Origin: Ulvibacter algarum
GTDB taxonomy: Bacteria > Bacteroidota > Bacteroidia > Flavobacteriales > Flavobacteriaceae
Assembly: GCA_947488905.1 (NCBI GenBank)
Contig: CANLBJ010000001.1
Location: 620,001-684,000, forward strand
Direction of reading: 5' to 3'
Length of the DNA stretch: 64,000 bases
Shown here: positions 794 through 13,739 of the stretch, piece by piece
Layout: every line of letters starts with the position of its first letter
Position numbering within the stretch: the stretch's first letter is position 1
The notes under the pieces: generated by a model
What the model saw: the letters and a program-made list of their open reading frames with translations, nothing else
Told to the model about the DNA's origin: nothing
Database searches by the model: none
Made by a program: the position numbers and the translations under genes

Positions 794-875
794 ATGCGCA
801 AAATTTACTATTTTATTGACCTTTAAATGGTGATATTTAACCAGAGCTTTTGGGTCGTCTGTTTTCAGACTAGAT

Positions 876-917
876 AAAAAAAAGAGTCGCAACGTGAATG
901 TTGTGACTCTTTTTTTA
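876..917. terminator. Bidirectional terminator after the antiporter operon
   Basis: A 13-bp stem, AAAGAGTCGCAAC (881-893) with GTTGTGACTCTTT (900-912), is flanked by A and T runs on both sides, so it can act in both directions. It lies about 40 bases past the stop of the minus-strand antiporter. Confidence 0.85.
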
Positions 918-952
918 ATATAAAATGTTTGTTTTAAGTTTTTAAATTCTAC

Positions 953-2215
953 CTACTCTTGCTCTATAGATGGCGCCTTCCATCTTACTTCTCCCACTGC
1001 AGTACTGTTTGCTTCTTTAACAGCCTTACCACTGCGTCGCTTATCATAAATCATAGCTCCGGTCATAATTAAACTTGTACCTATGATAACAAATAATAAG
1101 ATACCTGGCTCAAAAGCTGCAATTTCAGCTTCTACAGGTATTGCGTAAAATAGAAGCACAGTAATTAAACCACGTGGAGCTATAAATAATTGTGGCAAAA
1201 TATCTTTCCCCACAAAAATGCGGAGTAGTACAAATCTAATAATGTAAATAGATGCGATAATTAATAGGCTAATAATAGCCACATTAAGGTCAAATAAAGA
1301 GGCTACGGCAATTGTAAGGCCAAATATCACAAAGAAGAATGTACGTACCACAAAAGCTGTCTCTGCGGTGATGGTGTGAAGTTCATGATAAATATGGTGA
1401 GCTTTCTCGTAGTGTAAGAATTTTTTAAACTTTCCTTGAAAGAATAACTTCATGTTTGCGATAATCAAACCAAAAATCAAAATTATAATTAATGAAGACA
1501 GGTGCATTTTTTTACCCACTGCATATAATAATAACAATACAGCAATCAATAAAAACAATTTCACTTGGCTTTTTATCTTCTGAAATATTAAGATAATTGC
1601 ATAACTAGCTACTGTAGCAATCACAATGGTGATAAGTAAGTTTCCTGTAAAGCCGATAACGCCTCCATCACTTTCTGGATCTAGTTTTCCAGATAGAAAA
1701 TAGAACATCATAATCCCAATGATGTCAGAGAATGTGCTTTCATATATATGAAACTCTTTCTTTGATTGCACTAAGCCTGATACACTTGGGATAATAATCG
1801 CACTTGATAAAATAGAAAGTGGTGTTGCGTATAACCAAGCAGATGATATTGTCATGCCTTCTATGAAATACATTAATATTTCTGCAGCAACCCAAGTGGA
1901 GAGTATTAAGCCAACGAGAGCAACGGTAAATGCTTTTAAAATGGGCCATAGTTTTTCTCGTTTGAGCTCTAGCTCTAAGGCGGCCTCAAGCACAATCATT
2001 ATTAAACCTACAATCCCTAAAACTTCTAGAATAGGAAAGAAGTCTAGTTTTTCTTCAATAAAGTAATTCATTACATATTGAAGCCCAACACCTAAAATGA
2101 TAAGCATCAATACGGCTGGAATGTTTGTTTTCTTAGATAGTCCATTAAATAAAAACGACAATATGATTATCGAAGCTACTGCTATGATGACATTATATGA
2201 TGATAATATTTCCAT
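953..2215 (-). CDS. Cation:proton antiporter (CPA family, NhaP/KefB-like membrane domain)
   Basis: This 420-residue protein is almost entirely membrane-embedded (about a dozen hydrophobic helices) and starts with an N-terminal helix followed by the NIPAVLMLIILG segment typical of sodium/hydrogen exchanger domains. There is no cytosolic TrkA-N/RCK extension, only a short basic/polar tail of about 35 residues. It would exchange monovalent cations for protons across the inner membrane. It is the last gene of a three-gene minus-strand operon, 6 bases after the MscS-like gene, and ends at a strong terminator. The pairing with a channel-like protein and a P-loop ATPase is unusual and suggests that ion flux is sensed or gated. 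Ion specificity cannot be read from the sequence. Confidence 0.85.
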   Translation of the reverse strand: MEILSSYNVIIAVASIIILSFLFNGLSKKTNIPAVLMLIILGVGLQYVMNYFIEEKLDFFPILEVLGIVGLIMIVLEAALELELKREKLWPILKAFTVALVGLILSTWVAAEILMYFIEGMTISSAWLYATPLSILSSAIIIPSVSGLVQSKKEFHIYESTFSDIIGIMMFYFLSGKLDPESDGGVIGFTGNLLITIVIATVASYAIILIFQKIKSQVKLFLLIAVLLLLYAVGKKMHLSSLIIILIFGLIIANMKLFFQGKFKKFLHYEKAHHIYHELHTITAETAFVVRTFFFVIFGLTIAVASLFDLNVAIISLLIIASIYIIRFVLLRIFVGKDILPQLFIAPRGLITVLLFYAIPVEAEIAAFEPGILLFVIIGTSLIMTGAMIYDKRRSGKAVKEANSTAVGEVRWKAPSIEQE

Positions 2216-2221
2216 TATAAA

Positions 2222-2899
2222 TTATGCTTTGTTAGTGAGGTTGTGTGATTCTAAATATTTTTTTAAGCTAGAAGAAGAACCGTGCTCCAGTAAGCTACAT
2301 TTAATGTTAATTGTACTTGCATCTACTCTTTCAATTCTTGGTTTTGTAGCAGTATCTGCATAAGGTGATATGAATAATAGTGATTCTATTTGAGCAATGG
2401 TGTGTTCACTTTTAATATCAAAATTCACGTATCCTGCATTATTTTGTTTGTGACCTATTTGAACCACTTTATTGCGTAAAGAACCGTATTGGAGTATTGT
2501 GGTGCGATTTGTATCGTTTAATACTAAGCTAAACATATTTAATTTAAGAATAACGCCTAATTCTTTATCATCAACGATAAAAGTGTCTCCTACTTTTACA
2601 TTTTTATTGAGTTTAAATTTTGCCCCATACACAAAGTCAATAATTTGATCTTTAAATATAAATCCGGTTAGTATTAGGAAAACAGTGTGTGGTATTACGT
2701 TTATATTTATAAACTCGTACAGTAAAATTGGGGTTGCTATGAGTATAAGCAGTACGATAATTTGTCCTCTGTAGTTGTTTAGATCTTTGCGTTTGTTTTT
2801 AGGTAATAGCATACCGTAGCCTGTAAATCCTGCTAATAATACTATAATTAAGATTCCAACTACTAGAAATGATTTCCAGAAAAATGTCCAATATTCCAT
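2222..2899 (-). CDS. Small MscS-like membrane protein
   Basis: This 225-residue protein has three predicted N-terminal helices (about residues 10-30, 45-65, 70-88). A soluble part follows, beginning KVGDTFIVDD and continuing as a beta-rich stretch that ends in ILQYGSLRNKVVQIG. That order (helix, then KVGD beta-domain, then a loop equivalent to the 'IPN' turn) resembles the MscS beta-domain, but the canonical glycine/alanine-packed pore helix is not obvious. I infer an MscS-fold channel or a non-conducting relative. Its start codon overlaps the stop of the upstream ATPase by one base (TAATG), so the two are translationally coupled. The antiporter follows 6 bases later. Confidence 0.55.
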   Translation of the reverse strand: MEYWTFFWKSFLVVGILIIVLLAGFTGYGMLLPKNKRKDLNNYRGQIIVLLILIATPILLYEFININVIPHTVFLILTGFIFKDQIIDFVYGAKFKLNKNVKVGDTFIVDDKELGVILKLNMFSLVLNDTNRTTILQYGSLRNKVVQIGHKQNNAGYVNFDIKSEHTIAQIESLLFISPYADTATKPRIERVDASTINIKCSLLEHGSSSSLKKYLESHNLTNKA

Positions 2900-5220
2900 T
2901 AGTTGATGATTTTATGAATTTCGTTAGTAACTACAGGGTTTATGCTTATCCCGTTAGTGATATCTCTCAATATTATTTTTGAATGAAATAACTGAGAAAT
3001 GGTTTGTTTAAACTGTTTGTCATCAGAAAACTTGACAAGCTCTTTAAGTTCAATATCATTAAGCTTTATGTATCTGTCTAGCTGATTTAAAATAGCTTTT
3101 TGGTTTGATGAAAATGTATCTCTCAGTTTATCAAGTTTCATATTAAAGTGCACATTACCACTTTCTGTTTGGTTAGTCATGTAAGTCCATGTTTGTAGGC
3201 AGACACCTATGTTATGGTCACAATGTCTAGCAATTTTACGTATTCTTTTTTGTAATCTTTCTGTGTCTAGAACATCGCCATTATCGTTTACGAGTTCTTG
3301 TTGTGATGCTTCATGCCTCAGCATAAGAGCGTTTACTATTAATGCCTCTGAAGTTTTAGAAACATCTACTGTTGCAGTAAAGATGGCTTCAAACTCAATC
3401 CAACTTTGAAGTCCGTTTGCAGTACCTGTAGTGCAGCCTATCATCATAAAAAATTGATCACCGTGTATTGCTATAAATTGTTTTATTTCTTTAGCAATAT
3501 CTAACATTGACATCCCTGGTGTTTGCCATAGCTCAACATCATCTATTAGAATGTAATTTTTTGATGCTGCGTCACTGTTTTTTACAATTTCTTGTAAAGC
3601 ATTTGTTATTGAGTGGTCACATTTAAATTTTCTACCGTTAATGGTTGCGTTGCTATTTGGTTTTAAAACTACAGGTTTGTTGTCGCTAAGTTTTTTAATA
3701 ATAGCTTCAAAAAATGAGGTTTTTCCAGAAAGACGTTCTCCTTTTACTAAAAGGGCGCCGTCAAAACCTTTCTGCCAAGAAGAATAAGCTCTTAGTGCCT
3801 TTGACTCTAGTGTTTCTCTCTCTAGTAAGAATAGATCTCCTATAAATGTACGGTTAAGAAATAAGGCGTCATATTGCTCATTATGATCTTTAGCTGTCCT
3901 AAAATCAATTAATTCTTGGGTAGCTAGTTTAGTATTCACATTTCCGAAGGGAAGCACCTCACTATACTTAGATTTTATCTTGTTCCAGAAAGAAGCAACA
4001 ATTGTGTTTGCTTGTTTAATAGAAGTGTTGCCGTACTTGTTTAAAGGACGATGAAAAGGGACTAAAAAAAGTTCTTTCTCATCAAATAAGTAAGACACGA
4101 CAAGATTGTCTTTTATATTACTATAGATAGTTTCAAACTTTTTTGAAGCGTACCCATTGTAAGAAGTAAACTCTTCTGTGAGTCTCTCTTGTTGTTTTTT
4201 TAACTGTACAGTTTCTAGTGCGCGCTCTTTTGATTGTGCAAAACGCAGGTTGTTTAATAGGTTAGAAAATTGTGACAAGATATTTGTACGTACCAGCTCT
4301 TGTTTAGAAAAAATCTCTACTAGTTCTGTTGCGATTTCTGCTTCATACCATTTTGATAAAGATTTATGCATGCTTAGCTGTCTGTTAATCACTAAGCCGT
4401 TGTCAATATTGATAGGGACAGATAATACGCCTTGTTTTTTTAATGTATCAAAAAGCGTTGTTTCTTGAGCTACATCCCCGTGCCCTATTTTTTCTGCACT
4501 AGCCATCAACTTTTTTATATGGGCGATAGCATCATCAATAGTGGTAATGTCTTTAGGTAATGGGTTGTTATGTTGAGATAGAAAATCTAAAAAAGTTTTG
4601 TTAGTTTTTTCTAAGCTATCTATATGATTTATAGTGGCGGTATAGGTAGTTCTTACTTTTTTTAATTTTGCTTTTAAAGTAGAAACACTATTTATTTGAG
4701 CTTCTATTTTATCCAGTTGTTCAATAATAACGGGTAATGGGCTACTGTATGTATTTTGGTTAAATGCTACTTGTTGTGGTTTTAGTTTTTTAATACCATC
4801 AGTATCGTTTGCAATGTTGTTTTTAGTTTCTTCTATCGCCTTTTTAAGAATTGTAACAGACTTATCATTAAGATTTTTAAAACTTTCTTCGGAAATTTTA
4901 GCATCTATTAATTTTTGCTCCGCTTCATTAAGATTGATAATTATATCTCTAAAAAGTAGAGCTAAGTCCTTGCATCTCTTCGGAAATGTGAAATTATAGA
5001 GATAGGTAGTTAAAGACTCTTCTGAGATTTTTTTTAAAACTACCTCTTCATCAATCTGAGATTTTACAGAAGCTGCTTTGAACCAATTAATAAATGAAAT
5101 GATAGAAGTTGCGTAATTAAGAGCTGGTATGTCACTATTGGTAGACGATATACTATTAGTTTTAAGATTCTCGATATTATCTAAGAATTCTTGGGTGGCA
5201 GCTGCATACTCTTGTTGCAT
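2899..5220 (-). CDS. Large coiled-coil P-loop ATPase (STAND/AAA-like), function unknown
   Basis: This 773-residue protein has no signal peptide. Residues about 1-430 are mostly helical with heptad-like charged stretches (predicted coiled coil). A P-loop follows at about 492-500 (GERLSGKTS) and a Walker B-like strand at about 551-558 (YILIDDVE). The segment FFMMIGCTTG after it could hold a sensor-type residue. The last 150 residues look like a helical bundle plus a winged-helix-like end, the usual order in AAA/STAND regulators. It is the first gene of an operon with an MscS-like protein (1-base overlap) and a cation antiporter, behind a long inverted repeat. I do not recognise a named family. 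A cytosolic nucleotide switch controlling the two membrane partners is inference from context only. Confidence 0.6.
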   Translation of the reverse strand: MQQEYAAATQEFLDNIENLKTNSISSTNSDIPALNYATSIISFINWFKAASVKSQIDEEVVLKKISEESLTTYLYNFTFPKRCKDLALLFRDIIINLNEAEQKLIDAKISEESFKNLNDKSVTILKKAIEETKNNIANDTDGIKKLKPQQVAFNQNTYSSPLPVIIEQLDKIEAQINSVSTLKAKLKKVRTTYTATINHIDSLEKTNKTFLDFLSQHNNPLPKDITTIDDAIAHIKKLMASAEKIGHGDVAQETTLFDTLKKQGVLSVPINIDNGLVINRQLSMHKSLSKWYEAEIATELVEIFSKQELVRTNILSQFSNLLNNLRFAQSKERALETVQLKKQQERLTEEFTSYNGYASKKFETIYSNIKDNLVVSYLFDEKELFLVPFHRPLNKYGNTSIKQANTIVASFWNKIKSKYSEVLPFGNVNTKLATQELIDFRTAKDHNEQYDALFLNRTFIGDLFLLERETLESKALRAYSSWQKGFDGALLVKGERLSGKTSFFEAIIKKLSDNKPVVLKPNSNATINGRKFKCDHSITNALQEIVKNSDAASKNYILIDDVELWQTPGMSMLDIAKEIKQFIAIHGDQFFMMIGCTTGTANGLQSWIEFEAIFTATVDVSKTSEALIVNALMLRHEASQQELVNDNGDVLDTERLQKRIRKIARHCDHNIGVCLQTWTYMTNQTESGNVHFNMKLDKLRDTFSSNQKAILNQLDRYIKLNDIELKELVKFSDDKQFKQTISQLFHSKIILRDITNGISINPVVTNEIHKIIN

Positions 5221-5246
5221 ATAAATGTGTTAGTAAGATAGGTTCT

Positions 5247-5287
5247 TATTGATGTGACATCAAACTTAATGGAAAGTCACATCAATA
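5247..5287. promoter_or_regulatory. Long inverted repeat upstream of the ATPase operon (candidate operator)
   Basis: The perfect 12-bp arms TATTGATGTGAC (5247-5258) and GTCACATCAATA (5276-5287) are separated by 17 bases. The left arm also carries the odd-length palindrome TGATGTGACATCA (5250-5262). The repeat sits 27-67 bases before the ATPase start and has no T tract after it on the minus strand, so it looks like a protein-binding site rather than a terminator. TGATGTCA recurs near 5371-5379. Confidence 0.55.
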
Positions 5288-5409
5288 TATGAAAAATTAT
5301 ATAAAATAAAATTACCGTGTAATATTGCTCTCTTGTAGCTCCTCTAGTAATAAAGGTTGTAAATTAAATTGTGATGTCAAAAATAAGTAATTAAATAGTA
5401 TGTGGTAAG

Positions 5410-5610
5410 TTAATCTGTAGACTCTAAGCTAAATAGCTCGTGTACTGTTACTTTTAAGGTCTTTGATAGTTTTAGTGCTAGTACGGTGCTTGGTACATAT
5501 CTATTTTTCTCAATAGAGCTTATTGTTTGACGAGAAACACCAATTGCTGTGGCTAATTCATCTTGAGTTAAGTTTTGAATTGCCCTTTGTATTTTAATGG
5601 TATTAATCAT
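5410..5610 (-). CDS. Small XRE-family helix-turn-helix regulator
   Basis: This 66-residue protein is essentially one HTH_3 domain. The pattern TQDELATAIGVSRQTISSIEKNRYVPS (residues about 15-41) contains the recognition helix, and a short acidic tail ends it. It is a DNA-binding repressor of the minimal type seen next to small membrane proteins. Its ATG overlaps the TGA of the upstream membrane-protein gene (ATGA), so the pair is co-translated. A palindrome over the pair's promoter (6085-6102) suggests autoregulation. Whether it also binds the inverted repeat ahead of the ATPase operon is untested. Confidence 0.9.
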   Translation of the reverse strand: MINTIKIQRAIQNLTQDELATAIGVSRQTISSIEKNRYVPSTVLALKLSKTLKVTVHELFSLESTD

Positions 5611-6062
5611 TTGTATATTTTTTTCATTCCTTCAAAACCTAATATATACATAAGTAATAAGCAAGACAGCATATTAAAATGGCTTAGTTCAACCGCTATT
5701 TGCTGAAAGTTATCACTAACTAGTGCGCTCATTATTGTTGTAATATATGGAGTGATAATGATAAAAAATATAGAACATATAAATGCAAATAACATGGCTT
5801 TGCCTCTAAGAGTATCTATCATTTCATCTTCCATTTTTTCTTTTGCAAGTACAACCATGGCAAGACCAATAACACCGGCTGTTTTAATTGAATAAAGTAA
5901 AAGAAACGATGGGTTAACTGTTTTTGCTAACCACAAAAATGAGACGAAACATCCTATGGCAAGTGTCCAGCCTATTGGTTTTGCTTTATTAGGTAATTTA
6001 AAGGTTGTCCACTTCTCGAGGGTGTGTAGTTCTTTTTCAGTGCAAGATTTTTCAGTAACCAT
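5607..6062 (-). CDS. Four-helix membrane protein paired with an XRE regulator
   Basis: From ATG 6062 the protein has 151 residues; a longer reading from TTG 6083 would overlap the promoter, so I chose the ATG (MVTEKSC). A polar N-terminus of about 30 residues is followed by four predicted helices (about 31-50, 55-72, 88-110, 120-143). Between helices 2 and 3 lies an acidic stretch, KEKMEDEMIDT. The arrangement (small polytopic protein plus a 66-residue HTH, 4-base overlap) is common in Firmicutes and Bacteroidota, but the function is not established. It may act as a membrane sensor or anti-repressor for the regulator. Confidence 0.7.
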   Translation of the reverse strand: MVTEKSCTEKELHTLEKWTTFKLPNKAKPIGWTLAIGCFVSFLWLAKTVNPSFLLLYSIKTAGVIGLAMVVLAKEKMEDEMIDTLRGKAMLFAFICSIFFIIITPYITTIMSALVSDNFQQIAVELSHFNMLSCLLLMYILGFEGMKKIYK

Positions 6063-6080
6063 AATAATAAATTTAGAATA

Positions 6081-6102
6081 CAAATGTAAAGAAAACTTTA
6101 CA
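6081..6102 (-). promoter_or_regulatory. Promoter -7 box with overlapping palindrome (candidate XRE operator)
   Basis: On the minus strand TACATTTG (6088-6081) matches the TAnnTTTG -7 box and would start transcription about 13 bases before ATG 6062. It overlaps the perfect palindrome TGTAAAG-AAAA-CTTTACA (6085-6102), so a bound regulator would block polymerase. A related GTAAGTTTTAC lies just upstream. Confidence 0.6.
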
Positions 6103-6156
6103 TAGCGGAAAGTAAGTTTTACAATTTGTATTTAATTAATACTTTTCTTATAAATT

Positions 6157-6186
6157 AAAAGCCCCAACATAATTGTTGGGGCTTTT
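6157..6186. terminator. Terminator of the TM2 gene
   Basis: A 12-bp stem, AAAAGCCCCAAC (6157-6168) with GTTGGGGCTTTT (6175-6186), has a 6-nt loop. It lies just downstream of the minus-strand TM2 gene and separates it from the membrane-protein/XRE pair. Confidence 0.85.
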
Positions 6187-6208
6187 AAATAAATATGGTT
6201 ATACTTTA

Positions 6209-6562
6209 TTATAGTCCTGGATATTTTTTAGTAATAATGTCAATTAGATCTACAATTGCCCAAACTCCTAGACCTCCAAAGGTTACGATAAAAAGGATGT
6301 TCCATCCTATAGGGCTTCCTAGGTACCAACGGTGAGCTGCTAGAGGCCATAAAAAGATAAAAAGTAATAGAGCGATTAAAAAAGTGTCATCTGATGCAGC
6401 TGCTGCAGGAGATGTCATTATAGATGTATCGGCTGTGTCATCAGTAATGTTAGTTATTTCGGTAGTATTTGTGCTTGATGTTCTAGTTACCGGAAAACCA
6501 GCATAGCTATTTGTGGTCATTAAAAGAATAAATGCAAATAGTAAAGTAATTTTAAGTTTCAT
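6209..6562 (-). CDS. Secreted/membrane TM2-domain protein
   Basis: This 117-residue protein begins with a signal peptide (MKLKITLLFAFILL...SYAG). A Ser/Thr-rich linker (residues about 25-55) follows, then two helices. The second half carries the TM2 signature: AHRWYLG (about 76-82) and a terminal helix with GGLGVWAIVDLIDI. TM2 proteins of Bacteroidota are small envelope proteins of unknown role. A promoter (6588-6595) and a terminator (6157-6186) make it a single-gene unit. Confidence 0.8.
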   Translation of the reverse strand: MKLKITLLFAFILLMTTNSYAGFPVTRTSSTNTTEITNITDDTADTSIMTSPAAAASDDTFLIALLLFIFLWPLAAHRWYLGSPIGWNILFIVTFGGLGVWAIVDLIDIITKKYPGL

Positions 6563-6587
6563 ATTTTATGTATTATTGTTGGTGATT

Positions 6588-6595
6588 CAAAAATA
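6588..6595 (-). promoter_or_regulatory. -7 box of the TM2 gene
   Basis: TATTTTTG on the minus strand (complement of CAAAAATA) matches TAnnTTTG. The predicted start is about 20 bases before ATG 6562. No clear TTG lies at -33. Confidence 0.5.
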
Positions 6596-6606
6596 TAATT
6601 ATTTAG

Positions 6607-7482
6607 ATGAAATATACCCTTAAGTTTTTCTTTTTTTTCTTGATTTCTTATCTGTCTGTAGCCCAAGAAGTGCCTTATGAGTATATGGGAGCTATCAAAC
6701 TAAATGATTCTTCATTTATATCTTATAAAATTATTTTTAATGAACTTGATGGGATTGTTAAAGGGTATTCAATTTCAGATATGGGTGGTCCTTATGAGAC
6801 TAAGTCTAGCATTGAAGGAGTCTATAATGAAGAAGAAAAGTCTTTTAGTTTTAATGAGTTAGATATCGTTTATACAAAGTCATCAATAGATAGTTTTGAT
6901 ATGTGTTTAGTTCATTTTTCAAGCGATATTAGAAAGCTAAATTCAAATAGGGTTATTGAAGGCTTATTTAAGGGTAAATATGTAGATGATAAGCCTTGTT
7001 TAGACGGAGAGTTGTTTTTAACAAATATGGAGATTGCTCTAGAAAGGGTAAAAAAAATAGATAAAAAATTACAGAAATCTAAGAGGGTTTCGCAAGAAGT
7101 AAAAGATAAATTTAATGCCATGTCAGTTGTAGACACTTTAACTCAGAGTTCTATTAAAGTTAAAGAAAACTTGAATGTTTTTGCAGAAGGTAATGAGGTT
7201 ATTTTTTCTATTTATGATTCTGGTAAAGTAGATGATGACCGTATTAATCTGTTTGTAAATGATAAATTGGTTTTAAGTAATTATGCTATTACCGCAAACA
7301 AAGAGAAAATTATTTTAAAAAGACAAAAAGAACCTTTGAGAATCAAAATAGTAGCATTAAATGAAGGTTTTTCTGCACCTAATACAGTAAAAATAGAGGC
7401 GTTAGATCAAAATAATTTAATGACAACAAGGACAATTTTAAAGACTGAAGAAGAGGCTTATATTACTTTTTTGTTTAAATAA
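6607..7482 (+). CDS. Secreted protein with C-terminal Ig-like/CBM-like domain, unknown
   Basis: This 291-residue protein has an N-terminal signal peptide (hydrophobic to about residue 19, VAQ|E). Residues 20-150 form a beta-rich region of short alternating strands that I cannot assign. Residues about 190-291 contain DSGKVDDDRINLFVNDKLVLSNY followed by KIVALNEGFSAPNT. That pattern ('D..DGD.I.L.VNG ... N.G..PPNTA') recurs in secreted Bacteroidota proteins as an extracellular beta-sandwich. It is transcribed away from the TM2 gene and ends flush against the convergent lipoprotein gene. No enzyme motif is visible. Confidence 0.6.
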   Translation: MKYTLKFFFFFLISYLSVAQEVPYEYMGAIKLNDSSFISYKIIFNELDGIVKGYSISDMGGPYETKSSIEGVYNEEEKSFSFNELDIVYTKSSIDSFDMCLVHFSSDIRKLNSNRVIEGLFKGKYVDDKPCLDGELFLTNMEIALERVKKIDKKLQKSKRVSQEVKDKFNAMSVVDTLTQSSIKVKENLNVFAEGNEVIFSIYDSGKVDDDRINLFVNDKLVLSNYAITANKEKIILKRQKEPLRIKIVALNEGFSAPNTVKIEALDQNNLMTTRTILKTEEEAYITFLFK

Positions 7483-8094
7483 TCACCTGTTTTTTATCGC
7501 AATACTCTCATTGTGTAAACGCCACCCATAACCGGCCTCATTGGTCTCATCAATATCAAAGACAGAGTAATACCTAAACATGTTGTTAGGGTTTTTTGTG
7601 TCAACAAAAATTGGATTTAGCTGAGCTTCCTTATGGCTTTCGTGTATAGCAAAAGGATTTACAACCGGCAACCATTGTCCATTTTTTAAAATATATAAAT
7701 GGTATTTATGAAATTGAGGATCCTTAAGTTTTGTGTCAACAAGTAAAAGATCACGATCAAACTCATCAAAACGCAACATTTTTAAAGTAGCACCATACGT
7801 CTTAGCGAGTTTTAACGATGGTGCTTTATTGTCCTCAAAATTTATGGTGGTAATCCCTTTGTTTTTATCAATGTTTTGTACAAACCCATAAAACGGAATA
7901 TTGTCTGCTTTGTAATTTGCACTCACGGCACCATTAGGTAAAGTGGTAGTGATCACTTCCGGCTCCGTATTTATTTCTTCTGAAATAATTACAGTTTCAG
8001 ATTTTGGCTCGCCTATGATAACCTTGTTTGTGTTTTCTGAGCTACTACCGCATGCTGCAAAATAAAAAAGGGGAATTAAAAGCGAGAATTTCAT
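7483..8094 (-). CDS. Predicted lipoprotein, unknown function
   Basis: The start is taken as ATG 8094 (MKFSLLIPLF), because a longer reading needs a TTG and breaks the signal peptide. A type II signal peptide ends in the lipobox FAAC (Cys about residue 15), and the low-complexity Ser/Glu segment after it is a typical lipoprotein tether. The remaining 170 residues show no motif that I recognise. It follows the UspA gene by 24 bases on the same strand and is probably co-transcribed. Its stop abuts that of the convergent gene with no spacer. Confidence 0.65.
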   Translation of the reverse strand: MKFSLLIPLFYFAACGSSSENTNKVIIGEPKSETVIISEEINTEPEVITTTLPNGAVSANYKADNIPFYGFVQNIDKNKGITTINFEDNKAPSLKLAKTYGATLKMLRFDEFDRDLLLVDTKLKDPQFHKYHLYILKNGQWLPVVNPFAIHESHKEAQLNPIFVDTKNPNNMFRYYSVFDIDETNEAGYGWRLHNESIAIKNR

Positions 8095-8118
8095 TAAAGA
8101 ATATTTCAGAACCAAAAA

Positions 8119-8940
8119 TTATATTTTAAATGTTATTACAGGCATTTGTGCGTGATTAACAAGGTCTTCGCTAATGCTACCGTTAAAAAAATGAGAGATT
8201 CCTTTTTTGCCATGAGTATTCATACCTATCAAATCAGCATTGTTGTCTTTTGCAAATCCTAATATTCCTTTTTCTACAGATGTATCGTTATAGACGTTAA
8301 GTGTGTAATTGTCTGCGCCCATACCCTTCACAAAGTTTTTCATAAGATCAAAAGCCTGTGTTGTTGTTTTAAAGCCGCTTGGGGTGTTTACGTAGAGAAG
8401 GTGCATTTTAGCATCCATTTTCTTTGCAAATTTTTGAGCATTATCAAATGCCTTTCTTCCTTCTTCAGAAAAATCTGTAGCAAACACAAAGTTGTCCACT
8501 GTAAATGTGGTGTGCGCATTTTTAATTACTAAAACTGGTATTGATGAGGTGCGCACTACTTTTTCTGTATTACTACCTATAAACATTTCTTTAAACCCAC
8601 TAGCGCCATGCGATCCCATAACAACTATGTCAACCTCTTTGTTTTCTGCAGCTTCTTTAATATCATCATAAATCTCACCATGACCTAGGGCTTCATGCAC
8701 ATTAACACCTTGTAAAAAATCTTTTTGTAAAAGTTCTGCAAACTTTTTTTCTGCAAGTTTCATAAAAAAGAGTGCTTCTGGCATAGCATTTCCGTCAACT
8801 CCTTTTATAAGGTTAGAGGGTAGCTCCATAGAGTGTAATAGGTATATCTCACAATCTTGCTTGTTTGCTATTTGTACTGCTACTCTCAGTGCATTCTCTG
8901 CTTGGTCTGAAAAATCTGTAGGGACTAAAATTCTTTTCAT
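8119..8940 (-). CDS. Tandem universal stress protein (UspA x2)
   Basis: This 273-residue protein consists of two Usp domains. The first starts MKRILVPTDFSDQAENAL and contains VVMGSHGASGFKEMFIGSNTEKVVR (residues about 105-130), the ATP-binding G2xG9xG(S/T) signature. The second starts near residue 150 (FVFATDFSEEGRKA) and ends with GMNTHGKKGISHFFNGSISEDL, a slightly degenerate version of the same loop. It is a cytosolic nucleotide-binding stress protein; tandem forms are common in Flavobacteriaceae. A lipoprotein gene follows on the same strand. Confidence 0.92.
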   Translation of the reverse strand: MKRILVPTDFSDQAENALRVAVQIANKQDCEIYLLHSMELPSNLIKGVDGNAMPEALFFMKLAEKKFAELLQKDFLQGVNVHEALGHGEIYDDIKEAAENKEVDIVVMGSHGASGFKEMFIGSNTEKVVRTSSIPVLVIKNAHTTFTVDNFVFATDFSEEGRKAFDNAQKFAKKMDAKMHLLYVNTPSGFKTTTQAFDLMKNFVKGMGADNYTLNVYNDTSVEKGILGFAKDNNADLIGMNTHGKKGISHFFNGSISEDLVNHAQMPVITFKI

Positions 8941-9030
8941 AAGTGTTGATTTTGGTTGAATCTTAAAGGTAACTATTTAGTATTAAATCTTTAAAGATAA
9001 AACACTCTTTTTTAAAACAAAAATAAATAG

Positions 9031-9038
9031 TATATTTG
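9031..9038 (+). promoter_or_regulatory. -7 box of the rimP-nusA-infB operon
   Basis: TATATTTG exactly matches TAnnTTTG. Transcription would start near 9045, leaving a leader of about 58 bases before rimP ATG 9103. Confidence 0.65.
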
Positions 9039-9063
9039 CAGCGAATTTGATATTTAACGAGTT

Positions 9064-9089
9064 GAGGGGACATACAGTCCCCTCTTTTT
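9064..9089 (+). promoter_or_regulatory. Terminator-like hairpin in the rimP leader (candidate attenuator)
   Basis: The perfect stem GAGGGGAC (9064-9071) / GTCCCCTC (9077-9084), with a 5-nt loop, is followed by TTTTT. It lies between the promoter and rimP, and the upstream gene is on the other strand, so it cannot be that gene's terminator. It has the shape of a premature terminator. Confidence 0.65.
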
Positions 9090-9102
9090 ATAGAATAAAT
9101 TG

Positions 9103-9572: not shown

Positions 9573-10805
9573 ATGGAAAATTTAGCGTTGATTGATTCTT
9601 TTTCAGAATTTAAAGATGACAAACAGATAGACAGAGTAACGCTTATGGCGATACTGGAAGAGGTTTTTAGAAATGCACTCAAAAAGAAATACGGGAGTGA
9701 TGATAATTTTGATATTATTGTAAACCCTGATAAAGGAGATTTAGAAATCTGGAGAAACCGTGTAGTGGTTGAAGATATTGATGTGATGGATCCTAATGAA
9801 GAGATTTCAATAACAGATGCGCGTAAGATAGAAGATGATTTTGAGGTAGGTGAAGAAGTGTCTGAAGAAGTGAAGTTGATGCATTTGGGACGTCGTTCTA
9901 TTTTGGCTTTACGTCAAAACTTGATAAGCAAAATCCATGAGCATGATAATACGATTATCTATAAGCAGTTTAAAGATATGGAAGGTGAGATATATACTGC
10001 AGAAGTGCACCATATACGTCACAGAGCAGTTATCTTATTAGATGATGAGGGCAATGAGATGATAATGCCAAAAGATCGCCAGATACCTTCAGACTTTTTT
10101 AGAAAAGGAGATAATGTGCGTGGTATTATTGAGAGTGTAGAGCTAAAAGGAAATAAGCCTACAATAATTATGTCTCGTGCTAGCCCATTATTCTTAGAAA
10201 AATTATTTGAACAAGAAATACCAGAAGTTTTTGATGGTCTTATTAATGTTCAAAAAGTAGTTCGTATACCTGGTGAGAAGGCTAAAGTAGCAGTAGATTC
10301 TTATGATGACCGTATAGATCCTGTAGGAGCTTGTGTGGGAATGAAAGGATCTCGTATCCATGGTATTGTACGTGAGTTAGGAAATGAAAATATTGATGTA
10401 ATTAATTATACAGAAAATATTAACTTGTTTATTACACGTGCATTGAGCCCTGCAAAAGTAACGTCTGTTAAAGTTAACGAAGAGACTATGCGTGCAGAGG
10501 TGATTTTAAAGCCAGAAGAAGTTAGTAAAGCGATTGGTCGTGGAGGTCATAACATTCGTCTTGCTGGTCAACTTACTGGTTATGAAATAGATGTGCTTCG
10601 TGAAGGAGCAGAAGAAGATGTAGAGCTTAAAGAATTCTCAGATGAGATTGAAGCTTGGATTATTGCAGAATTCCACAAAATTGGTCTTGATACGGCTAAG
10701 AGTGTGTTGGAATATGATATGAAAGATCTTGTGAATCGTATTGATCTTGAAGAAGAAACAATACAACATGTGATTGACATATTAAAACAAGAGTTTGAAG
10801 AGTAA
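9573..10805 (+). CDS. nusA: Transcription termination/antitermination factor NusA
   Basis: At 410 residues it matches the short NusA of Bacteroidota, which lacks the C-terminal acidic repeats. The order is: an N-terminal RNA-polymerase-binding domain (to about 125), an S1 domain (about 130-200), KH1 with GACVGMKGSRIHGIVRELGNE (about 251-271), and KH2 with IGRGGHNIRLA (about 317-327). It binds RNA polymerase and nascent RNA to modulate pausing, termination and antitermination. Being second in the rimP-nusA-infB operon, it could act on the leader hairpin at 9064-9089, as NusA autoregulation does in Escherichia coli; that is inference. Confidence 0.97.
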   Translation: MENLALIDSFSEFKDDKQIDRVTLMAILEEVFRNALKKKYGSDDNFDIIVNPDKGDLEIWRNRVVVEDIDVMDPNEEISITDARKIEDDFEVGEEVSEEVKLMHLGRRSILALRQNLISKIHEHDNTIIYKQFKDMEGEIYTAEVHHIRHRAVILLDDEGNEMIMPKDRQIPSDFFRKGDNVRGIIESVELKGNKPTIIMSRASPLFLEKLFEQEIPEVFDGLINVQKVVRIPGEKAKVAVDSYDDRIDPVGACVGMKGSRIHGIVRELGNENIDVINYTENINLFITRALSPAKVTSVKVNEETMRAEVILKPEEVSKAIGRGGHNIRLAGQLTGYEIDVLREGAEEDVELKEFSDEIEAWIIAEFHKIGLDTAKSVLEYDMKDLVNRIDLEEETIQHVIDILKQEFEE

Positions 10806-10859: not shown

Positions 10860-13739
10860 ATGGCAGAAGTAAAATCAATAAGGCTTAATAAAGTACTCAA
10901 AGAATTTAATATTTCTTTGGATCGTGCTGTAGAGTTTTTAAAATCTAAGAGCATCGAGATAGAGGCGCGTCCTACTACTAAGATTTCAAGTTCTGAATAC
11001 GAACACCTAGCATCACAGTTTGCGAAGGATCGTGAGAAGAAAGTAGAATCTAAAGAAGTAGGTGCAGAAAAGCGCAAGGAAAAAGAAGAGCTTTTAGCAG
11101 AAAAATTACGTGAAGAAGAAGAGAAGGCTGCAAAAGCTGAAGCTTCTAGGGTAATTAGAGCAGAGGCGTCTCTTGCTGGAACTAAGCAAGTAGGCAAACT
11201 TGACCTTGATGCAAAAGGAAAAGTTGTGAAGCCAGCTCCAAAAGTTGAGGAGAAGGTAGAAGCGCCTAAGCCGGTTGAAACACCTAAAGTTGAAAAACCT
11301 AAGGTTGAGGAAAAGAAAGCTCCAAAACCTGAAGTGGTAACTGCTAAGGCTGAAAAGCTGAAGTTGAAAATTATTAAAGAAGCACCTAAGCCAGAAAAGC
11401 CTGTTGTTGAAAAGCCTGTTGTTGAAAAACCAGTCGTTTCAGAAACTAAGCCTAAAGAGGTGAAGGAAGCTCCTAAAAAAGAAGAGGTTGCTCCTGTAGT
11501 TGAGAAGCCTACAAAAACAACTGCCGAAGATACAGAATTGTCTAAAGAAGAAGCGGCAGCACCGGGTGCTGTAGCAAAGACAGATGTTATTAAGACAGAA
11601 TATAAAAAATTAAATGGCCCTAACTTTACAGGAGCCAAAATAGATCTTTCTAAGTTTAAAAAACCAGAAAAGAAAAAACCAGATACTAAGCCAGGTGAAA
11701 AACGTGGTAAGCGCCGTCGTATTAGTAAAGAAGGTACAGGTACAAGTACAGGTGGAGGACAACGCGGTCCAAGAACTAACACTAGAGGGCGTAAGCCAGC
11801 TGCAGGTAGATCTCATACACCAAAAGAAGAGCCTAGTGAAGCAGAAGTACAAAAACAAGTACGTGAAACTTTAGAAAAACTTCAAGGAAAGTCTTCTAAA
11901 GGTAAGGGTGCTAAGTATAGAAGAGATAAGCGTGATACTCACCGTCAAAAAACGGAAGAGGAATTAGCACAACAAGAGTTAGAGAACAAAGTACTTAAGG
12001 TAACTGAGTTTGTTACGGTAAGTGAGGTTGCAACGATGATGGATGTTCCGGTAACAAATATTATCTCGGCTTGTATGTCATTAGGGATGATGGTTACAAT
12101 GAACCAGCGTCTAGATGCTGAGACAATTTCTATTGTTGCAGAAGAGTTTGATTATGAAGTAGAGTTTGTTAATGCAGATATTGAAGAGTCAATACAAGAA
12201 GAAGAGGATGCTCCAGAAGACTTAAAAGAAAGAGCTCCTATTGTTACTGTAATGGGTCACGTAGATCACGGTAAAACATCTTTACTTGATTACATACGTA
12301 AAGAAAACGTTATTGCAGGAGAATCAGGAGGAATTACACAGCATATTGGTGCATACGGTGTTCAGTTAGAGAATGGTAAAAAAGTTGCTTTCTTAGATAC
12401 ACCAGGTCACGAGGCCTTTACGGCAATGCGTGCTCGTGGTGCTCAAGTTACAGATATTGCTATTATTGTAGCAGCTGCAGATGATGACATCATGCCGCAA
12501 ACAAAAGAAGCAATTTCTCACGCACAAGCTGCGGGAGTACCTATCATATTTGCTATAAACAAAATTGATAAGCCAGATGCTAATCCAGAAAAGATTAAAG
12601 AAAAACTAGCACAAATGAACCTTCTTGTAGAAGACTGGGGTGGAAAAATCCAATCTCACGATATCTCTGCAAAAATGGGAACAGGAGTTAAAGAACTACT
12701 TGAAAAAGTATTGCTTGAAGCAGAATTACTAGAGCTAAAAGCAAATCCAGATAAATCAGCTTCTGGTACCGTAGTAGAAGCCTTTCTTGATAAAGGTCGT
12801 GGATATGTTTCTACTATATTGGTTCAGGCAGGTACACTTAAGGTAGGTGACTACGTTCTTGCTGGGCAAAACAGTGGTAAAGTAAAAGCAATGCAAGATG
12901 AGCGTGGCAATAAAGTAAAATTTGCTGGACCATCTACACCGGTATCTATATTAGGATTAGACGGAGCGCCTCAAGCAGGTGATAAGTTTAGTGTCTTTGA
13001 GGATGAGCGTGAAGCAAAAGATATTGCAAGTAGAAGAACACAATTACAACGTGAGCAATCTGTGCGTACACAACGTCATATTACTCTTGATGAAATTGGA
13101 CGTCGTATTGCACTTGGTGACTTTAAAGAGCTTAATATTATCCTTAAGGGTGATGTTGATGGATCTGTAGAGGCATTAACAGATAGTTTCCAGAAACTAT
13201 CTACAGAGGAGATACAGGTAAATATTATACATAAAGCAGTTGGACCTATCACAGAGAGTGATGTGTTATTAGCAAGTGCATCAGATGCAATTATTATTGG
13301 ATTTAACGTGAGACCTATGGGTAACGCACGTCAAATAGCAGACCAGGAAGAAATTGACATCCGTATGTACTCTATTATCTATGCAGCCATTAATGATCTT
13401 AAAGACGCGATGGAGGGAATGTTATCTCCAGAGATGAAAGAAGAGATTACAGGTACTGCAGAAATTAGAGAAACATTTAAGATATCTAAGGTTGGTACCA
13501 TTGCAGGTTGTATGGTCTTAACTGGTAAGATTATCAAGGCAGCAGACATTCGCTTAATTAGAGAAGGTGTTGTGGTGTATACAGGTAAGCTAGAATCTCT
13601 TAAACGTTTTAAAGATGATGCTAAAGAAGTGGCTAAAGGTTACGACTGTGGTATGCAGATTAAAAACTACAACGACATAAAAGAAGGAGATATTATTGAG
13701 TGCTTCCAGGAAGTAGCTGTGAAGAAGAAGTTGAAGTAG
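10860..13739 (+). CDS. infB: Translation initiation factor IF-2
   Basis: This is a 959-residue IF-2. Residues 1-60 hold an IF2-N motif. Residues about 60-370 are a highly charged Lys/Glu/Pro linker with EKPVV repeats and an RG/K-rich stretch. A second IF2-N domain lies at about 380-430. The G domain has G1 GHVDHGKTS (about 466-474), G3 [15 protein letters not shown] and G4 NKIDKP, and domains II, III and C2 follow. It delivers initiator tRNA to the 30S subunit with GTP. It is the last gene of the operon, 54 bases after nusA, followed by a strong terminator. The long linker produces large spurious reading frames on the other strand. Confidence 0.98.
11394..11438 (+). repeat. Three 15-bp tandem repeats within infB
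   Basis: GAAAAGCCTGTTGTT occurs twice, followed by one diverged copy, encoding EKPVV x3 in the flexible linker of IF-2. It is a site where repeat-number change would stay in frame. Confidence 0.85.

Follow-up and report, generated by a model that had tools for sequence, protein, structure and literature searches.

AAA+ ATPase genes paired with genes for MscS-fold membrane proteins, and their linkage to ion transporters in some bacteria

An operon of three genes in Ulvibacter algarum

A stretch of 64,000 nucleotides from Ulvibacter algarum (contig CANLBJ010000001.1, positions 620,001 to 684,000; hereafter the window) contains a minus-strand trio of open reading frames, which encode, in the order of reading, an ATPase (2899..5220, 773 residues), a small MscS-like membrane protein (2222..2899, 225 residues) and a CPA-type cation/proton antiporter (953..2215, 420 residues). 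Our analysis of these genes and their relatives indicates that the real unit is the pair of ATPase and MscS-like protein, whose distribution extends well beyond operons of this kind. The stop codon of the ATPase gene and the start codon of the MscS-like gene have base 2899 in common (TAATG, a 1-base overlap), and a 6-base gap (2216-2221) separates the MscS-like stop from the antiporter start, so that the gene set, the coordinates and the translational coupling given in an initial annotation of this DNA all agree with the sequence. The full operon segment is single-copy in its own genome, as is the ATPase.

The operon is flanked by two sequence elements. A terminator-like hairpin on the minus strand lies 3' of the antiporter gene (871..922) and has 23-nucleotide arms (871-893 and 900-922) that are 87% complementary and flanked by T/A runs. 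The initial annotation had called this a strong terminator; the hairpin and its T-run are evident from the sequence and from the repeat finder, but the element is absent from the output of a consensus terminator scan. The inverted repeat 5' of the ATPase gene (5247..5287), which had been described as large, is present but modest, consisting of perfect 12-nucleotide arms (5247-5258 and 5276-5287) around a 17-nucleotide spacer, and it is possibly an operator.

The AlphaFold model of the ATPase has a mean predicted local distance difference test score (pLDDT) of 78 overall and mostly 84-94 in the ATPase part. Residues 1 to ~430 form mostly long helices, while residues 445-773 adopt an Orc/Cdc6-like AAA+ core with a lid, followed by the winged helix that the initial annotation had anticipated. 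The top structural match is A. pernix ORC2 (Z 15.4, root mean square deviation (rmsd) 5.2 over 303 residues), and the fold is also near those of RuvB, RFC and NSF; this search barely probed the N-terminal helices (1-430). Pfam returned a weak AAA_14 match for the window ATPase, AAA_22 exceeded its cut-off in two relatives (L120 and L210), and nSTAND3 was found in L120 only, at 20.3 bits against a cut-off of 27.2, with no nSTAND match for the window ATPase. Searches of PDB sequences gave short P-loop or helix matches only; the best single-sequence match, which aligns part of the helical region with a segment of a Piwi protein, was treated as chance. The ATPase belongs to no named family in Pfam, NCBIfam or PADLOC.

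Both nucleotide-binding motifs reported earlier are present. The Walker A motif GERLSGKTS (residues 494-502; 3715..3741, minus strand) conforms to the consensus GxxxxGK(S/T), and the Walker B motif is YILIDDVE. Among 117 aligned relatives the first glycine of Walker A is kept in 115 and the second in all 117, while the lysine is kept in 92 and lost in 25. At the Walker B acid pair the window protein has D-D, and most relatives have E-N, N-D or a comparable combination. At the position of the sensor-2/GDxR box, an equivalence judged by eye, the aligned lid motif resembles GN(I/V)G and has no arginine. Because 25 of the 117 relatives lack the Walker A lysine and Walker B is rarely D-E, the family looks more like a nucleotide switch than a motor, and some of its members may hydrolyse ATP slowly or not at all. 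The P-loop AAA+ core, lid and winged helix are shared with Orc1/Cdc6-type AAA+ proteins and STAND NTPases (AAA_22, nSTAND3), whereas the family is set apart by its helical N-terminus, its membrane partner, its weak Walker B and an apparent GN-x-G where Orc has the GDxR box, and it has no link to replication.

The 225-residue protein is predicted to contain three N-terminal helices, a beta domain and an alpha/beta end (model pLDDT 84). Its model can be aligned with E. coli MscS (2vv5) over 214 residues with a Z-score of 10.7 and an rmsd of 5.9, and the 43 best matches in a structure search were all MscS channels. Pfam by itself gave no above-cut-off match for this protein, and neither NCBIfam nor PADLOC assigns it to a named family; a four-sequence profile built from it and three relatives matches H. 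pylori MscS (E 3e-8), and Pfam MS_channel_2nd is over its cut-off in three relatives. The MscS-like label of the initial annotation thus holds, and the non-channel fold that would have spoken against it was not what the structure search returned. The window protein shares the three-helix, beta-domain, alpha/beta fold with MscS, YnaI and MscK, and differs from these channels in being short and in lacking their pore signature.

Pairing of the ATPase with MscS-fold proteins

Among 98 genomes comprising that of U. algarum and its relatives, an ATPase other than the one in the window occurs in only 2, both from another family of the order. One of these loci (L042) has the same trio in the same order, with identities of 72% for the antiporter, 25% for the ATPase and 24% for the MscS-like protein. 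A single-sequence scan of genome contigs with the window ATPase gave no match, while a profile search recovered members from 61 of the 395 genomes that represented the phylum and a profile of solo ATPases (those paired with an MscS gene alone) found 80 loci in genome contigs. A scan of named genomes, many of which are metagenome assemblies, places the family in Bacteroidota, Balneolota, Rhodothermota, Ignavibacteriota, Calditrichota and Gemmatimonadota, and also in Acidobacteriota, Pseudomonadota, Thermodesulfobacteriota, Bdellovibrionota and Myxococcota.

Across these loci, which span at least nine phyla, the same-strand gene directly after the ATPase gene matches the MscS profile at 35 of 38 loci in a first set and at 73 of 75 in a second, which shares some genomes with the first and was found with the solo-ATPase profile and scored with the MscS profile from the first set. 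The background rate, taken from the other genes of the same loci, is 4/407 and 18/412, respectively, which excludes chance adjacency. The homologues are therefore not scattered among unrelated neighbours, an outcome that the initial annotation had named as contrary to its proposal. Of the two membrane genes whose presence after the ATPase the initial annotation proposed to tabulate, the MscS gene follows at nearly all loci of these sets, and the antiporter completes the operon at 10 loci.

Relatives from Alcanivorax, Gallionella, Bacteriovoracia and Myxococcota (L206, L208-L211, L213-L215) have an ATPase with its own N-terminal region of ~4-7 membrane helices, in some with a signal and a coiled coil. 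They give the impression that a portion of an MscK-like channel was joined to the ATPase; the N-terminal part of the Alcanivorax protein has no sequence relative in the PDB, and an MscK-like origin stays unproven.

Transporter linkage and the pore helix

The family occurs in four architectures. The most common consists of an ATPase of ~1000 residues (sometimes ~400) and a longer MscS protein, alone. At three such loci (L144, L158, L194) a second MscS gene follows, and the next gene encodes a CorA Mg2+ transporter in L144 and L158 (Pfam) and is of similar size in L194. The arrangement seen in the window, ATPase, MscS-fold protein and CPA antiporter on one strand, comprises 10 loci: the window, L042, L096, L097, L101 and L102, together with L257, L259, L261 and L265 from an independent later search. 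The middle protein of L101 and L102 (185-187 residues) is under the profile threshold; the antiporter gene is adjacent and convergent in L114, L115 and L256 and nearby in L255. At 11 further loci (L043, L044, L098-L100, L258, L263, L268, L269, L271, L272) an SLC12-type cation-chloride cotransporter is fused to the ATPase and the MscS-fold gene follows. In L043 and L044 this is a protein of ~1670 residues with an SLC12-like start (Pfam AA_permease/SLC12) and the ATPase as its C-terminal half; the SLC12 relatives of other genomes are for the most part unfused proteins of ~745 residues. The last architecture is a conserved five-gene cluster at 5 loci (L111, L119, L120, L129, L130), encoding a 414-residue membrane protein, a CPA-ATPase fusion of ~1500 residues, an MscS-fold protein, TrkH and TrkA, an assignment based on Pfam for L120 (Na_H_Exchanger) and for TrkH of L111 and on phmmer for the remaining loci. 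The MscS-fold gene of L111 is under the profile threshold. The 414-residue protein shows weak similarity to the CPA portion of the fused protein. A weaker CPA-like transporter-ATPase fusion lies beside a gyrA-like gene in a member of the Gemmatimonadota (L195), with no MscS gene visible up to the contig end.

A quick, midpoint-rooted tree was made of 121 ATPase domains. Those from CPA operons group with those from SLC12 fusions (SH-aLRT 99), while the domains from CPA fusions are placed with the solo forms (support 87 for the group). This topology indicates that transporter linkage originated or was exchanged on two or more occasions.

The MscS-fold proteins of these architectures differ in their pore helix. 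The window protein lacks the canonical Gly/Ala-rich TM3a pore helix with its GF(A/S)xQD-type signature; its pore-helix region, TVFLILTGFIFKDQIIDFVYG, has one glycine or alanine in 24 residues, where solo relatives usually have 5-10. A canonical helix from the solo partners is GIAVGFASQDILKNIFGG, and its counterpart in the window protein, LILTGFIFKDQIIDFVYG, is without the signature. A regular expression for the signature matched 94 of 97 solo partners, 5 of 5 systems with a membrane-fused ATPase and 1 of 30 transporter-linked partners. Glycine and alanine numbered 5-10 per 24 residues in 93 of 95 solo partners and 0-4 in 17 of 18 linked ones, L100 having 8, and a fresh set gave 1-5 for linked and 6-7 for solo proteins; since the rows are related by descent and amount to ~2 independent lineages, the associated p-value is not literal. 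The pore signature is lost in transporter-linked partners of two separate ATPase lineages. Lacking the canonical pore helix, the window protein may not be a channel.

The antiporter matches Pfam Na_H_Exchanger (71.4 bits, cut-off 26.2), in agreement with its first description as a cation/proton antiporter, and contains a candidate ion-site motif, F-S-D with D164, read from sequence alone. Orthologues in other genera are 70-76% identical. Compared with orthologues in other families (L042, L096), the antiporter shows 72-76% identity and its operon partners ~22-25%, so that, by this measure, the ATPase and the MscS-like protein, the presumed regulators, diverge far more rapidly than the antiporter does. 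In other genera of Flavobacteriaceae the antiporter orthologue adjoins rimP-nusA-infB and the ATPase-MscS pair is absent there; several of these loci additionally have, next to the antiporter, a gene for a large membrane protein resembling the one at 3-545 of the window. The same landmarks, named by eye from their resemblance, surround the window operon (rimP-like at 9100, nusA-like at 9573, infB-like at 10860), which indicates that the antiporter is the resident gene and that the pair was either gained next to it or lost from there. Some 6.9 kb (2216-9100) part the antiporter from rimP-nusA-infB in the window, an interval that holds the ATPase-MscS pair, an XRE-type helix-turn-helix gene, a TM2-domain gene, a UspA-like gene and others.

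A proposed regulatory module and its alternatives

We propose that the ATPase and its MscS-fold partner constitute one regulatory module, with an ion transporter as the output when one is linked, a proposal that we regard as evenly balanced between right and wrong. The ATPase would act as an Orc/Cdc6-type, STAND-like switch that changes state with nucleotide on the cytoplasmic side of an MscS-fold assembly, with which it would be in physical complex and which is expected to be a heptamer. A solo pair would be a nucleotide-regulated MscS channel, while in the window form and the fusions the partner, having lost its pore signature, could serve as a membrane-tension sensor or a docking platform. 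The output would then be the ion transporter, namely the CPA antiporter in the window and SLC12 or CPA plus Trk elsewhere, the module having been recruited several times to ion-transporter regulation; the direction of this control and the ion concerned we infer. The physiological role is probably in turgor or ionic homeostasis. A more detailed version, in which the AAA+ switch reads cell state via the MscS-fold protein, ATP gates the solo channel and the pore was lost at least twice upon rewiring to CPA, SLC12 and Trk, which would have made a sensor subunit out of a channel, is possible, and we offer it tentatively. The initial annotation had suggested a nucleotide switch that alters ion flux; repeated fusion or operon linkage to transporters fits such control, while the defence variant of that suggestion found no support.

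Several observations weigh against the module. Operon linkage by itself is no proof of physical contact. Relatives from the Flavobacteriaceae have the antiporter, and not the pair, at this genomic position, so the antiporter can work alone. The proteins in the pore comparison are correlated through shared descent and represent about two independent lineages, and the transporter-linked partner of L100 retains a Gly/Ala-rich helix. Finally, one family, f89 (L260, L262, L264, L266, L267, L270), has the ATPase with no MscS gene seen adjacent. The f89 ATPase is a soluble version, ~1120 residues where complete, without a transporter neighbour, and at several of its loci it is encoded in the same conserved position, close to a DnaK-like gene.

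The pair might instead work by itself as an MscS-type channel gated by ATP, with the antiporter or cotransporter merely co-expressed in an osmotic response and not physically coupled. Canonical-pore solo pairs are the commonest form and the antiporter stands alone in relatives, as this explanation would have it. It accounts poorly for the covalent fusion of two transporter families to the ATPase, which argues for direct coupling in those fusions, and for the degenerate pore helix of transporter-linked partners, and we consider it rather unlikely. A still less probable role for the ATPase is that of an AAA+ assembly or quality-control factor that builds or dismantles oligomers of the MscS-fold protein and the transporter. 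Its fold, near RuvB, RFC, NSF and Orc, and the constancy with which it is paired with a membrane protein that forms oligomers are compatible with such a role; a motor is unlikely, as one-fifth of the family has lost the Walker A lysine and the Walker B acid pair is poorly kept, and covalent transporter fusion better suits a resident regulator.

The winged-helix end of the model and the weak MarR-like matches could also point to an Orc/Cdc6-like transcription regulator of the adjacent ion-transport genes. We find this highly improbable, since fusions put the domain on integral membrane transporters and the Alcanivorax, Gallionella and Myxococcota ATPases have membrane helices of their own. Least probable of all is anti-phage defence, in which the ATPase would sense infection and open a membrane effector; the initial annotation had mentioned membrane-targeted defence. 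A P-loop switch with a membrane protein is akin to some defence designs, and PADLOC mad8 matched weakly (best 3e-6) in 7 of 25 relatives; the three window proteins have no PADLOC match at E 1, no homologue of the ATPase was found in phages or plasmids, the loci occupy conserved chromosomal sites, a uridine-kinase-like gene is near the solo pairs in 35 of 120 loci (the same genome being counted twice in some), and the partners are housekeeping ion transporters.

MscS is usually viewed as a passive, autonomous valve, and to our knowledge the coupling of turgor and energy state to ion transport in bacteria is largely open. If the module operates as proposed, MscS-fold proteins would be nucleotide-controllable and able to serve as sensors for other proteins. 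We found no MscS system with a dedicated ATPase in the open-access PMC literature, nor a description of this composition there under MscS with ATPase, STAND, SLC12 or gene neighbourhood. The individual folds are already known.

Among the nearest known systems are the regulated antiporters and potassium systems KefC/KefF, KhtTU and TrkH/TrkA, in which an antiporter or a Trk channel has a cytosolic nucleotide-binding regulator. TrkH and TrkA themselves belong to the five-gene architecture of the family, but its putative regulator, an AAA+ protein that has an MscS-fold partner, is not an RCK or quinone-reductase-like subunit. The ATPase-MscS module is a directly testable candidate regulator of bacterial SLC12 and CPA transporters. 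In the SLC12 fusions the transporter and its C-terminal domain are like those of prokaryotic SLC12 cotransporters, and the fusion differs from the usual protein in its added ATPase module of ~930 residues and in the MscS-fold gene that follows.

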